43,792 bases of DNA from positions 1 to 43,792 of the IMG/VR virus record IMGVR_UViG_3300037230_000061; one strand, written 5' to 3'. The position numbers and the translations under genes were made by a program. Every line of letters starts with the position of its first letter. Positions within the stretch are counted from its first letter, which is position 1. This document shows, piece by piece, positions 4,870 through 10,506 of this stretch. Under the pieces are notes generated by a model. The model made no database searches. It was given only the letters and a program-made list of their open reading frames with translations, and was not told where the DNA came from. Origin of the DNA: a virus.

Positions 4870-5169
4870 CTAGGCAGCCGCGACAATAGGGCCGCTTACA
4901 ATTCGGCCCCGTGCTTCGATATTCACGCTGGCGTTGTCGTCAGCGTTGCACTCGAAGCCACATTCTAAACAGAGGAAAAGGGCTTGAGACTTTCGATTGG
5001 CTTTATCGCAATATCCGCATCGGCTGCAGGTGCGAGACGTTCCGCGCGCTTCCACATACAGAGTTGGAAGCCCGACGCGCCGCGCCTTGTATTCGATAAA
5101 ACCACCGAGTTGCCTGAATGCCCAATTCCCGATCCGCCATCTCATTTCCCGCGTAAAAGCCGATGCTCG
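4870..5169 (-). pseudogene. tnpB: 5'-truncated TnpB (C-terminal RuvC/zinc-ribbon fragment)
   Basis: The frame is open from 5169 (preceded by an in-frame TAG) to a stop at 4870, with an internal ATG at 5145. It encodes the conserved end of TnpB: WAFRQLGGFIEYKARRVGLP, then GTSRTCSRCG, then FLCLECGFECNADDNASVNI. That gives both cysteine pairs of the zinc ribbon and the NADDNA motif with the last RuvC acidic residue. TnpB proteins are about 350-420 residues, and this keeps roughly the last 90. It cannot be an active RNA-guided nuclease alone. In active loci the guide RNA scaffold overlaps this end of the gene, so an RNA role remains possible. Confidence 0.85.
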
Positions 5170-6163: not shown

Positions 6164-6354
6164 ACTACGTCCTACTCTTTCGTGGGTCCTGCGTTGTGTT
6201 CGGGGATCTTCTGCACGTCAACAACATCAAGGCGCGCATCAAAGACCGTTACCGATGTAAAGAGAAAGACTTCGAGATCAGACACGCCAAGATTGATGAC
6301 GTTATCGAGTTCCCGGAGGATCTGCAGCATCTCAGGGCGGAGATTGGAGCATAG
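6160..6354 (+). CDS. Small hypothetical protein
   Basis: 64 residues, started by the ATGA overlap with the previous gene. It has a hydrophobic N-terminal strand region (MNYVLLFRGSCVVFGDLL), then a basic segment and an acidic end. The N-terminus is not long enough to be a clear membrane segment. Its TAG overlaps the GTG start of the terminase-like gene (TAGTG), which makes it part of one coupled string leading into the packaging genes. Family unknown. Confidence 0.55.
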   Translation: MNYVLLFRGSCVVFGDLLHVNNIKARIKDRYRCKEKDFEIRHAKIDDVIEFPEDLQHLRAEIGA

Positions 6355-7205
6355 TGGAAGCTGAACTCAAATTCCGCATGGCCGATGTGGAGCCGTACTA
6401 CCCGGAAGTTGACGGCATTCGCAGCGTACTAGAATGGCAGCGCAAGTTCCACTACGGCATAACGCCTAGCAGGAAAGGTTCTGATTACAAGCTTATATCC
6501 GGCGGATTGGGCTGTGGTATGAAAACAGCGATTTGCGCCGACATAGCGTTTCATCTCGACAGATTCCCGGGAATTGAGCTCACAGTTGTTGCCAACTATG
6601 ATTATGTGATTGATGAGTTTCTCTCTGATTTATTGCATCGGTCCCTTCCGTGGGGATCCGACAAGATCAAGGCAATCACGGCGAAGAGTCGCAAGATCGA
6701 AATGGCGAACGGCAGTTTTCTGTTAATGCGATCCTGCGCCGATCCTAACCTGCTGCGCGGCTTCGCCTGCCACAAGGCGTACATGATTGACGCGGCGACA
6801 TGGACGAAAACAGAGCAGTATGAGGTGGAAGTGGATGAGATAGAGGGCTACGAGCAGCCTGACAAAGAAGGTTTTGAGCAGCCTATCTACACAGGTAAAA
6901 CGATCATCGTGAAAAAAACCCGTGACGTCGACATCGGCAAGGAAATCTTTACAGCCCTTGCTGAGAGATGCCGCGCACGGGGCGACTTCCCGCGAGGCGT
7001 CACCGTTCAGCAGAGCCCGCGCGGCCACAACTGGGCTTACAATGTGTTCGTTAAGCCCGCGGGAGACGACAACTTCATAGAGGCCGATGGCTGCAGGCAG
7101 TGGGAGTATACCAACTTGTTGGGCCAGACCTTCTATACGCTCGGCATTCCAAGTTCCGCGAACACGTTTCTGACGGAGAGGTTTGTTCAGGGCGAACGCA
7201 TCTAA
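6354..7205 (+). CDS. Truncated terminase ATPase paralogue, degenerate Walker motifs
   Basis: 283 residues, GTG start in a TAGTG overlap. It aligns with the ATPase half of the terminase at 7558: SGG..G.G, then FPGIELTVVANYDYVIDEFL matching PGIQIVL-CAPYSYMIDEFF across the intein junction, then QQSPRGHNWAYNVFVKP matching DQNPRGHNWSWKIFVKP. The Walker A Lys position is Met (GGLGCGMKT against GGVGNGKSI). The Walker B-like ITEAAE is MIDAAT. It has an extra segment of about 35 residues and stops where the nuclease domain should begin. The intact frame and coupling argue for a kept, non-catalytic role, perhaps a partner of the terminase. A decaying duplicate is the alternative. Confidence 0.8.
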   Translation: MEAELKFRMADVEPYYPEVDGIRSVLEWQRKFHYGITPSRKGSDYKLISGGLGCGMKTAICADIAFHLDRFPGIELTVVANYDYVIDEFLSDLLHRSLPWGSDKIKAITAKSRKIEMANGSFLLMRSCADPNLLRGFACHKAYMIDAATWTKTEQYEVEVDEIEGYEQPDKEGFEQPIYTGKTIIVKKTRDVDIGKEIFTALAERCRARGDFPRGVTVQQSPRGHNWAYNVFVKPAGDDNFIEADGCRQWEYTNLLGQTFYTLGIPSSANTFLTERFVQGERI

Positions 7206-7480: not shown

Positions 7481-7505
7481 GGGCCTAGTAGTTCCAGCTA
7501 GGCCC
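7481..7505. repeat. Perfect inverted repeat before the terminase
   Basis: GGGCCTAG (7481-7488) and CTAGGCCC (7498-7505) enclose a nine-base loop. There is no T-run after it, so it is more likely a regulatory or processing hairpin than an intrinsic terminator. Confidence 0.5.
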
Positions 7506-7541
7506 GCCTCCAAACCCTCGTGTTAACCTGAGCTAGTTTTG

Positions 7542-7550
7542 TGCTAAACT
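7542..7550 (+). promoter_or_regulatory. Extended -10 box directly before the terminase ATG
   Basis: TGC followed by TAAACT ends seven bases before the ATG at 7558, where no ribosome-binding site exists. A start point at about 7557-7558 would give a leaderless mRNA. The -35 region is weak (TTAACC at 7523-7528, 16-base spacing). Confidence 0.35.
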
Positions 7551-7557
7551 TCCGTTC

Positions 7558-10506
7558 ATGTCCGCGATCAACTTTGCGCTTTTGCACAAGTCGCGCTGCC
7601 GTGAGCGCCTCTATGATAATTTTGCATCGGCTGTTGACGACGTTTGTGTGCCTTTTACCCTCGATTCGCTGTACCCTGTTCGTGAAGTGGAATGGCCACC
7701 CAAATCCGGGGAGTATGTTGAGTTGCAGGGGCCAATGCCCCACCAACTCAAAGCCCATGCCGGTATCACGCCTTCAGGCAAGAAGGCCAAATACATCATG
7801 CTTTCGGGAGGTGTTGGTAACGGAAAGTCGATTAACTTTGCGGTTGATATTGTGGCGCACCTTCGCAGATACCCCGGAATTCAAATCGTCCTTTGCGCCG
7901 ACGGAGACACCCTCGTGGAAGGTGTCCCTATCGGCGACTGTGTGCAGCCTGAGTATGTCAGAACAGCGCTGGGACAGAGTCCGGCGTCGGCTCCGTTTCG
8001 AAGAGGGCAAGCAGACCTGTGGCGTGTGTTAACACGTTCAGGCAAGGCAATATCAGTAGCGGCCAGCCACCGTTTCCTAACGCCAGAAGGTTGGCGTCCA
8101 CTTTCGAGCCTGAGTTCTGGTGACGTAATAGCGAGTGATGGTAGAGCTTATGACTGCTTTGACTCGGGAATATCCACAAGTTATCAAGAGAATTGTTCTT
8201 GGGATTCATGTCGTGGTGGTGAACTACTGAGCCCTGAAGCAACTTGCGCTGTGCATATCCTTCAACAATTCCTCGCGCTTTGCGGTTCCGAGTGTAGGTT
8301 CCACCAGTCCAGTTCGGGTTCGACGCGCCACGGCAAGCATGCTCCTTTCGAGTACGAAGAGTGTAACCGCGACGAACAAGGTGCTCGCGAATACAATTCC
8401 ACGATACACCATACTTCTCGCCAATTTTCTGGCATGTTAGGCCATCAGCATACAGAGCGGCAATTTCTTCAGTCGGAAGTGCTTTCGGGTTTATCAGCCC
8501 TGCCACATTCCCTACTGCAAACTGCTCTCGAAGTATCTGACCTACTCTGTGCTTACTTATACCGTTCAGGCGACCCGTCTCGATCTGGCTCTTCGTCCGC
8601 ATGTAGTCATCATATACTTTCTGCGACTCAGCTCTTGGCGGACGCTTCCCTTGGCCTACGCAAATGCCGTTCTTACGCAGAATTGAAGACACTGTGCAAC
8701 CGGCTATCCCGAGTCGCGCAGCAGCCTTCGTCTGATTCCCTTCTTCTTGAAACGCTCTGTAAACTTCTTCAAATGTTGGCATGCACATATCCTCCTAATC
8801 AATATTGTAGCACATATTGGGATTCGATAATTGGCGTATCATACGACAAATTTGCAGATTATTTTGATTTGAGCGTGTGTTCAGGCAATATGTACTTCGG
8901 AAACGGAGTCTTATCACACAACTGCGCACCATATTCGTACATGATTGATGAGTTCTTCTTGCCAACATTACGGACAGTTCTTCCTGACGAGTCGCCCCTC
9001 ATTAAGCAGATAAAAACAAAGGAGGGTCGCTACATAATGCGCAACGGCTCCGAGCTGCGCATGAAAGCATATGAGGACGCATCACGTATTCGTGGATGGC
9101 AGTGCCACCGCATCTACATTACAGAGGCCGCAGAGATTGGAGATGGAAACCCGTACAAGGCCGCCGAGATATTCAAGGCGTTGGGCGAACGGTTGCGCGG
9201 TTCCGGTGATTACCCCCTCGGTATGTGTATGGATCAAAATCCGCGCGGACATAACTGGAGCTGGAAAATCTTCGTTAAGCCTAACAAACTAGGTGACGTA
9301 GGGCTTGAGACGGTCTGCCCGCCCGATGGATATCGCCTCAACGAGATTCGTTTCCGCGAATACGAGCACACTGACCCCGTTTCAGAAGACACTTACTACA
9401 CTATAGCGGCCGGCACATCCGCAAACCCGTATCTACCAAAGGGTTACCTCGACAGCATGCTTGCACACCGCCGAGATGATCCGATGATGAAAGCCCGCAT
9501 GATCGACGGCAGCTTTACTCCGATCAACGCGCTGGTCTACGAGCTTCCTTACTACAGTAAGCAAAGCCACATCATTGACGTATACCGCTTCCTTCAGTAT
9601 TGGGAGTTGGACGCCTATGATGCAATCACCAACACGCCGTACGATGACCCGCGCGATGCCATTCCGCGCACATGGCCGCTGTATCTCGGCATCGATAGCG
9701 CTGGCGCCTCTTCTCCGTGGGCTGTTGAGTTCTACGTAGAAACGCCGGAAGACGAGTTCGGTCAGCACCACTACATATGCATCGATGAGATGTATTTTGC
9801 GGCAAAGGGTATGACATGGGCAGGCATCTCGATGGAGATACGGCGGCGCACCACAGGCTTGACCGGCCAGGAGGAAAAGGATTATCCTTCCAAGGTGGAG
9901 GGAGGCATCAATCCCGGCTGGCAGTTTGTGCAGTATTGGATCGACCCGATTCACTCCAAGCAGAAGAGCGGCCCGAACCAAGAAGCGATCTACGACGAAT
10001 TCCAAAGGAACGGCATACCGGTTCAGACTCCGCGCTGCTACAATCAAGCAGCGAGCGTTTCGCGCGTGAAAGAGTATTTACATAGAGACAGAACGCTGCC
10101 GTGCCCGTACATCGAGGACTTTGTTGATGATGACCCGGAGTTGCCCGAAGAAGAGCGGGGGCTGTACCAAATCGGCAGTGCTAAGCTATACTATTTAGCA
10201 GGCATGCGCGAAGGAGTTAACCCGGACGGCACGCCACTTGGATACGGGCCTTACGCCAAGGCGAACATTGCTGAAAAGCAAGAGTATCGCATGGACAACA
10301 AGAAGCAGAGGCAGGCGAGCGAGGCCGAGGAAGGTCTCACGCCGATGGGCCCTGAGAAGATTATCGACCGCGACGATCACGCTCAAACTGCGGAGATGTT
10401 CGCGTTTCTGGGTATCAATCCGCTGCCGCGCACCCGGCAGTCGAATGGTAAGCGGGTGGTTGTCGATGAGGATAGAAGTATCTATCCGGGAAGGAGGGGG
10501 AGGTAG
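7558..10506 (+). CDS. terL: Terminase large subunit with embedded intein
   Basis: 982 codons. Removing the 343-residue intein leaves a 639-residue packaging motor, a usual size. The ATPase half has Walker A GGVGNGKS about residue 85 and a Walker B-like IYITEAAE after the intein. The RNase-H-like nuclease half starts at YLGIDSAG (Asp713 of the precursor) and ends with DRDDHAQTAEMFAF (Asp939/Asp940). The protein pumps DNA into the prohead through the portal and cuts it. No Shine-Dalgarno precedes the ATG; an extended -10 box suggests a leaderless message. The later ATG at codon 60 would lose N-terminal residues that match the upstream paralogue. Assembly of a working motor would require protein splicing. 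Confidence 0.92.
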   Translation: MSAINFALLHKSRCRERLYDNFASAVDDVCVPFTLDSLYPVREVEWPPKSGEYVELQGPMPHQLKAHAGITPSGKKAKYIMLSGGVGNGKSINFAVDIVAHLRRYPGIQIVLCADGDTLVEGVPIGDCVQPEYVRTALGQSPASAPFRRGQADLWRVLTRSGKAISVAASHRFLTPEGWRPLSSLSSGDVIASDGRAYDCFDSGISTSYQENCSWDSCRGGELLSPEATCAVHILQQFLALCGSECRFHQSSSGSTRHGKHAPFEYEECNRDEQGAREYNSTIHHTSRQFSGMLGHQHTERQFLQSEVLSGLSALPHSLLQTALEVSDLLCAYLYRSGDPSRSGSSSACSHHILSATQLLADASLGLRKCRSYAELKTLCNRLSRVAQQPSSDSLLLETLCKLLQMLACTYPPNQYCSTYWDSIIGVSYDKFADYFDLSVCSGNMYFGNGVLSHNCAPYSYMIDEFFLPTLRTVLPDESPLIKQIKTKEGRYIMRNGSELRMKAYEDASRIRGWQCHRIYITEAAEIGDGNPYKAAEIFKALGERLRGSGDYPLGMCMDQNPRGHNWSWKIFVKPNKLGDVGLETVCPPDGYRLNEIRFREYEHTDPVSEDTYYTIAAGTSANPYLPKGYLDSMLAHRRDDPMMKARMIDGSFTPINALVYELPYYSKQSHIIDVYRFLQYWELDAYDAITNTPYDDPRDAIPRTWPLYLGIDSAGASSPWAVEFYVETPEDEFGQHHYICIDEMYFAAKGMTWAGISMEIRRRTTGLTGQEEKDYPSKVEGGINPGWQFVQYWIDPIHSKQKSGPNQEAIYDEFQRNGIPVQTPRCYNQAASVSRVKEYLHRDRTLPCPYIEDFVDDDPELPEEERGLYQIGSAKLYYLAGMREGVNPDGTPLGYGPYAKANIAEKQEYRMDNKKQRQASEAEEGLTPMGPEKIIDRDDHAQTAEMFAFLGINPLPRTRQSNGKRVVVDEDRSIYPGRRGR
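7958..8782 (-). CDS. HNH homing endonuclease encoded antisense inside the intein
   Basis: 274 residues from the ATG at 8782, eight bases after AGGAGG (8796-8791). An ATG at 8788 is too close to that signal. Three helix-turn-helix segments follow one another: about 16-40 (NQTKAAARLGIAGCTVSSIL), 60-86 and 105-140 (LTCQKIGEKYGVSWNCIREH). Next come NPNWTGG (155-161), common in HNH homing enzymes, and the HNH core VVHHHDMNPKNNSLDNLWIF with a later His211. Expected action: it cuts the intein-less terminase allele at the insertion site so that repair copies the intein. The last 55 or so residues are complementary to splicing block B and look non-domain-like. No group I intron is involved; the gene lies wholly within the intein. 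Confidence 0.88.
   Translation of the reverse strand: MPTFEEVYRAFQEEGNQTKAAARLGIAGCTVSSILRKNGICVGQGKRPPRAESQKVYDDYMRTKSQIETGRLNGISKHRVGQILREQFAVGNVAGLINPKALPTEEIAALYADGLTCQKIGEKYGVSWNCIREHLVRRGYTLRTRKEHACRGASNPNWTGGTYTRNRKARGIVEGYAQRKLLQGSVVHHHDMNPKNNSLDNLWIFPSQSSHKLYHHSLLRHQNSGSKVDANLLALGNGGWPLLILPCLNVLTHATGLLALFETEPTPDSVPALF
8791..8812 (-). promoter_or_regulatory. Extended -10 box and AGGAGG site of the antisense endonuclease
   Basis: On the minus strand TGC-TACAAT (8812-8804) is an extended -10 box, followed by ATTGATT and AGGAGG (8796-8791), then the ATG at 8782. The -35 region is poor (AATTAT at 17 bases), as expected for extended -10 promoters. The 5' leader would be only about 15 bases. 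Both signals lie inside the coding sequence for the C-terminal part of the intein. Confidence 0.6.

Follow-up and report, generated by a model that had tools for sequence, protein, structure and literature searches.

Can one mobile intein keep its splicing function on one DNA strand and its homing function on the other? This question is raised by a terminase gene in IMG/VR virus record IMGVR_UViG_3300037230_000061, all 43,792 nucleotides of which were analyzed here (the window). The gene for the terminase large subunit (TerL) is interrupted by an intein, and the strand opposite the intein carries a gene for a protein with helix-turn-helix (HTH) and HNH domains. We consider it highly likely that the intein is mobile and that its homing endonuclease is encoded by this separate antisense gene. 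Judged from sequence, the arrangement and its coding constraint are very well supported for a family of related loci and well supported for the window itself.

A terminase intein and its opposite-strand gene

The TerL precursor is encoded by a single open reading frame (ORF) of 982 residues (positions 7558–10506, plus strand), identified by its matches to phrog_2 TerL (expectation value [E] 7e-16) and Terminase_3 (E 1e-3). Intein-less TerL homologues align across the insertion site, which separates an N-extein (7558–7893, plus strand) from a C-extein (8923–10506, plus strand). Between them, TerL residues 113–455 make up a 343-residue class 1 type intein (7894–8922, plus strand), whose DnaB-like HINT domain is divided by a long linker. 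As originally predicted, splicing blocks A (Cys1, CADGDTLV), B (GKAISVAASHRFLTPEGW), F (YFDLSV), and G (GVLSHN, then Cys+1) are present, with Ala replacing the block B Thr. The intein thus carries the class 1 residues C1, H59, H342–N343, and Cys+1, and C1, H59, H342, and N343 are invariant across 31 family inteins. The Pfam Intein_splicing profile covers only the two ends of the intein (E 3.7e-7; the match spans residues 40–343 and skips a long middle stretch), and PDB entries of DnaB inteins match it in sequence (E 9e-8). The AlphaFold2 (AF2) model contains a confident HINT domain (residues 1–85 and 306–343, predicted local distance difference test [pLDDT] 89–98), which Foldseek places with the Ssp and Npu DnaB (E 5e-6) and gp41-1 inteins. 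The N-terminal splicing part with blocks A and B (7894–8150, plus strand) is delimited by a hidden Markov model (HMM) match at 7981–8151 and a pLDDT of 89–97 over residues 1–80, and the C-terminal part with blocks F and G, ending in HN before Cys+1 (8791–8922, plus strand), by an HMM match and a pLDDT of 90–98. The intervening sense linker (8151–8790, plus strand) is an open frame, as examined in the codon test below, and is predicted to be largely disordered (pLDDT below 50 at residues 91–204 and 50–77 at 205–300). It matched no protein family and contains no in-frame nested endonuclease, in agreement with the claim that the middle of the intein is not a homing endonuclease.

On the minus strand, an ORF at 7958–8788 holds a gene of 274 codons counted from M3 (7958–8782), predicted to encode three HTH domains followed by an HNH domain, the layout of a homing endonuclease. 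Its product matched HTH_23 above the cut-off (E 1.9e-6), HNH_3 (E 2e-4), and PHROG HNH families (E 3e-11), and thus combines an HNH motif with DNA-binding HTH domains, as HNH_3 homing endonucleases do. Searching both frames against the collections, which the original prediction had proposed, recovered intein families at the sense ends and HNH and HTH families in the antisense frame. In the AF2 model, the HTH domains and the HNH beta-beta-alpha core reach a pLDDT of about 90 or above. The core (8108–8260, minus strand; residues ~175–225, VVHHHDMNPKNNSLDNLWIFPSQSSHKLYHH) comprises strands at 186–189 and 202–205 and a helix at 208–224, and its invariant positions in alignment A6 are H188, H189, D191, N196, N201, and H211. 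Since Foldseek returned no PDB match under 1e-3 for this model, the fold assignment rests on AF2 and Pfam. The predicted HTH/HNH gene is borne out by these family matches, but its last ~50 residues (226–274) appear to be a mere disordered run-on through the intein's N-terminal block. A Shine-Dalgarno sequence, AGGAGG (8791–8796, minus strand), lies 8 nucleotides before the ATG at 8782, and an extended -10 box, TGCTACAAT (8804–8812, minus strand), lies just upstream of it, inside the intein coding sequence.

Recurrence of the layout and constraint on both strands

Single-sequence scans with the window TerL or HNH found no close relatives, and only profile searches were productive. An IMG/VR search with the window HNH and one relative gave 80 HNH loci, ten of them opposite an intein. 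Eleven such HNHs formed profile A4, which matched 417 relatives. The best 80 of these all lie opposite an intein, whose two blocks share a single ORF in 78 cases; the other two loci are truncated at a contig end. An HNH-blind scan with the family intein N-block retrieved the same combination of one ORF and an antisense HNH in 71 of 80 loci. Altogether, 164 loci (the window and 163 further ones, some contigs having been fetched twice) carry an antisense HNH in an intein, and these fall into 66 clusters at 90% nucleotide identity and 46 at 70%. All 164 are open in the same overlap phase (phase 1), none has an antisense stop, and the HNH catalytic pattern is present in 163. All 31 inteins tested matched Intein_splicing (PF14890), and all 47 HNH proteins tested, that of the window among them, matched HNH_3. 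None of the 51 HNH relatives from a scan of genome contigs was found opposite an intein, and a last viral scan for window-like HNHs added three loci only, which stand outside the classified set.

In the collection of named phages, the layout also occurs in cultured isolates, namely Pectobacterium phages Ymer, Abuela, Sabo, Koroua, Amona, Taid, and Pappous, Dickeya phage Setonix, and Pseudoalteromonas phage PHS3. The regions of Ymer, Setonix, Taid, Sabo, and PHS3 were read, and the other four rest on two-piece TerL and HNH matches. The Pectobacterium records list the 754-residue TerL as 'hypothetical protein'. In PHS3 (L243, 1044–3167), the GenBank TerL begins after the intein and the HNH is a separate gene, yet the TerL frame is open through the intein. 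In most members the insertion point falls within Walker A, at one of a small number of positions (GGNR/C...HN/SGKT or GNRxGK/C...HN/T, slashes marking the intein boundaries), and the host protein of one (L188) is an SNF2-like helicase rather than a terminase.

In this overlap phase, a sense stop can form only where TT, CT, or TC ends an antisense codon and the next codon begins with A, so most such stops are avoidable through the choice of wobble base. In the window, the region between the intein blocks has no sense stops against 4.9 expected from synonymous permutation (P(0)=0.0009), which upholds the claim that the sense frame stays open across the antisense gene. Stop-making wobble choices were used at 0 of 18 sites before A-starting codons versus 35 of 71 for the same amino acids elsewhere (Fisher 6e-5); when restricted to a narrower region of 112 codons, the test does not reach significance for the window by itself (P 0.21). 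Across 55 representatives (8,101 codons), the same permutation predicts 262 sense stops and none occurs, with stop-making choices at 0/751 sites before A and 1330/2356 elsewhere. Control HNH relatives not found opposite an intein contain 248 phase-1 stops in 7,888 codons, and none of 43 is open in phase 1. These controls do mildly avoid the same codon contexts (248/732 vs 1047/2301), a slight intrinsic bias that comes nowhere near the 0/751 of the family.

A comparison of substitutions by codon position in family pairs, related to the dN/dS comparison proposed with the original prediction, also identified the antisense protein as the constrained one. In 14 non-overlapping close pairs, linker substitutions at sense codon positions 1/2/3 numbered 153/428/133, position 2 being the antisense wobble position, while the C-exteins of the same pairs displayed the normal pattern (704/424/2511). 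Because the linker pattern reverses that of TerL, the antisense protein is under purifying selection and the sense amino acids are nearly free. The linker thus codes for the antisense protein, to which it would owe its presence, and on the sense side it would only have to stay free of stops up to its removal by splicing. As no locus interrupts the sense frame, ribosomes must translate straight through the linker, and removal by the predicted splicing would explain why so long a linker is tolerated. Antisense starts are preceded by a Shine-Dalgarno sequence in 32 of 55 representatives (12.5% background) and by an extended -10 near the block F coding DNA in 12 of 55 (1.8% background), an enrichment that is supporting rather than decisive because the backgrounds were not matched for block F composition.

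In the TerL intein of Caulobacter phage CcrRogue (L014, 2950–3972), one antisense frame is open for 341 codons without encoding an HNH, a warning that open antisense frames by themselves mean little in GC-rich genes.

Mobility, origin, and alternative explanations

Versions of the intein without the gene occur at the same site. In the N-block scan, seven loci carry mini-inteins of 130–152 residues without the gene at the same TerL position, and the TerLs of L261 (130 residues, without the gene) and L255 (315 residues, with it) are 86% identical. An intein retained beside a broken antisense frame had been named at the outset as the observation that would speak against the prediction; among the loci found with the N-block query, none combines a long linker with a broken HNH frame, and clean mini-inteins without the gene were found instead. 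In one of the seven, L271 (997–2706), a 148-residue mini-intein retains a 33-residue antisense HNH remnant, probably through loss of the endonuclease gene. Empty sites are found in relatives as well: the intein interrupts the Pectobacterium TerL, but no such insertion breaks the TerLs of Escherichia phage KW1E_UTAR and Klebsiella phage KLB22, which are 72% identical to it. Together with the nuclease and the insertion sites, this presence/absence pattern leads us to infer homing.

The window intein is inserted about 25 residues past the P-loop (PGIQIVL/C...HN/CAPYSY), at an intein-less junction flanked by GGAATTCAAATCGTCCTT/TGCGCACCATATTCG. The corresponding site is empty in L001 and L002 and in an intein-less, truncated TerL paralog directly upstream of TerL (6354–7205, plus strand), which is continuous across the insertion site (tblastn E 6e-42, 33% identity). 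This paralog comprises the ATPase part without a nuclease domain, has a Walker A degraded to GCGMKT, and is either a decayed duplicate or a repurposed ATPase-like protein. Elsewhere in the window, a 91-residue ORF (4873–5145, minus strand) matches the Cas12f1-like/TnpB zinc ribbon PF07282 (E 1.6e-19) and is apparently a C-terminal TnpB fragment near the packaging genes.

Several points weigh against extending the family picture to the window. It has no close relative in the collections searched, and the family evidence is thus carried over to a divergent member. Its Intein_splicing score lies just below the curated Pfam cut-off and its HNH_3 score slightly below the Pfam cut-off. Its block B reads AASH, with Ala in place of the Thr of TxxH, a position that is also variable across the family, TxxH being common but not universal in class 1 inteins. 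The start signals originally described are in place, but a full sigma-70 promoter (-35/-10), sought for the antisense gene, was not found, and only the extended -10 is present. The intein occupies another TerL site, downstream of Walker A, and its HNH lacks the EHRLVME motif. In the HNH trees, the Walker A family forms a cluster, and the HNH of the window is weakly grouped with the free-standing L015 (Shimodaira-Hasegawa-like approximate likelihood ratio test [SH-aLRT] 91–92; 52% over 64 columns).

Because the insertion site lies further downstream and the HNH is divergent, a separate origin of the window member is possible. The window would then have acquired its antisense HNH independently of the Walker A family, a convergent layout that is compatible with a mobile intein carrying a separate antisense endonuclease. 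The L015 grouping, the different TerL site, and the missing motif speak for this history; a single clade of the window and the Walker A family is, however, not rejected (approximately unbiased test, p-AU 0.72), and the overlap phase and the position between blocks B and F are the same. We regard independent acquisition as a serious possibility, though not the one we favor. In the same trees, two HNH relatives with no intein found opposite them (L030 and L055) fall inside the antisense family and are possibly free-standing escapees or ancestors.

The remaining alternatives question the arrangement itself. If the HNH-like frame were a by-product of the sense coding sequence, base composition could have opened it, as the 341 codons of CcrRogue illustrate; such an origin hardly accounts for HTH and HNH family matches with E down to 3e-11, for 164 loci in one phase, or for wobble and substitution patterns that mark the antisense protein as the constrained one, and we give it almost no credence. 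For the family, a chance open frame was rejected by the synonymous permutation, the HNH controls not opposite an intein, and the substitution pattern. A dead or split intein, with a sense frame that is not translated through, a TerL trans-spliced from two pieces, and the HNH as a free-standing insert, has parallels in L099, where a same-strand HNH lies between TerL intein halves, and in Brochothrix phage BL3, whose TerL is broken within the intein. Across the 164 loci, however, the host frame is a single ORF, uninterrupted between the intein halves, without one sense linker stop where the representatives alone should contain 262, and wobble stop avoidance makes sense only with ribosomal read-through; this explanation is very improbable. 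A group I intron at the locus was also rejected, there being no Rfam match at E<=1 in 7500–9300 and the exteins being joined at the protein level.

It is harder to dismiss, yet still unlikely in our view, that the antisense HNH does not home but works in packaging or against competing phages, the intein being merely its shelter. Nearly all members are in terminases, the catalytic motif is intact in 163 of 164, and HNH proteins can act with terminase (PMC10448857), as the HNH beside HK97-type terminases does. Against such a role, L188 is in an SNF2-like helicase, the relatives L047 and L083 are in frame in helicase inteins, related TerLs do without the HNH, and presence and absence among them fit a mobile element.

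Proposed mechanism and relation to known systems

In the mechanism that we propose, the sense strand would give a TerL precursor from which ordinary protein splicing excises the whole 343-residue intein, including a meaningless linker of ~215 residues, and the antisense strand would give the HTH-HNH nuclease from its own start signals within the intein coding sequence. The nuclease is predicted to recognize and cut intein-less terminase genes, whereupon repair would copy the intein plus the antisense gene into the cut site. Selection would keep the antisense protein, and its wobble bases would keep the sense frame free of stops. More tentatively, with chances that we place slightly short of even, these loci may represent an unrecognized class of mobile inteins, mainly of phage terminases, in which an independently expressed antisense endonuclease is made early and silenced by late terminase transcription, the linker's only sense duty being the absence of stops.

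Inteins have so far been understood as single polypeptides whose splicing and homing domains share one frame, and here the two functions would lie on opposite strands in 66 sequence clusters, including cultured phages. Current annotations overlook the layout, with TerL listed as hypothetical or truncated and the HNH unannotated (the PHS3 HNH is listed). If the proposal is true, the endonuclease is no longer tied to the timing and amount of host protein production. The loci also provide an unusually clean natural antisense overlap, in which one product would be discarded by protein splicing and the two-strand coding constraint can be measured with a nearly neutral sense protein. Since mini-inteins and full versions both occur at one site, gain, loss, and homing can be tested directly.

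In the open-access literature searched, we found no antisense endonuclease gene in an intein, and precedent only in group I introns. In-frame mobile inteins with LAGLIDADG or HNH endonucleases, such as the cyanophage Mic1 TerL intein (PMC7156551) and those of L047 and L083, resemble the inteins described here in that their HINT domain is housed in a terminase or another ATPase and the endonuclease lies between blocks B and F, but their endonuclease is translated in frame within the polypeptide that splices, whereas here it is a separate antisense gene. L047 (1993–4545) and L083 (2014–4527) are same-strand, in-frame HNH inteins in the P-loop of SNF2-like helicases, with an HNH of the same superfamily, and are the conventional counterpart of the antisense layout. 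The Ssp and Npu DnaB mini-inteins (PDB 6frg, 4o1r, 1mi8) have the same splicing-domain fold and sequence and no antisense gene. Conversely, free-standing phage HNH_3 homing endonucleases (such as those of phiKZ and Streptomyces phages) share the HTH and HNH_3 architecture but lack the shelter of a splicing element, and the antisense frames of such relatives contain stops.

Fractured genes, reportedly described in 2009 by Dassa et al., a study cited in PMC3229294, carry a free-standing endonuclease between split intein halves. There, as here, a phage gene harbors an intein and an endonuclease that are made as separate products, but the host gene is in pieces whose products are joined by trans-splicing, whereas the loci described here retain one reading frame. 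In L013 (Brochothrix phage BL3, 727–2520) and L099 (1819–4143), an intein divides TerL near the C-terminus, each intein half being encoded by its own ORF, and L099, with its same-strand HNH, is the fractured-gene counterpart of the antisense layout.

The closest precedent for the opposite-strand gene itself comes from nuclear ribosomal DNA (rDNA) group I introns. Dsq.L2066 with its endonuclease I-DsqI (PMC9548176) likewise splices itself and bears, on its opposite strand, an endonuclease gene that is expressed and active, but it differs in its RNA splicing, its His-Cys enzyme, and its location in an rRNA gene. Because the sense RNA of such introns need not be an open frame, they are free of the two-strand coding constraint that marks the terminase inteins.

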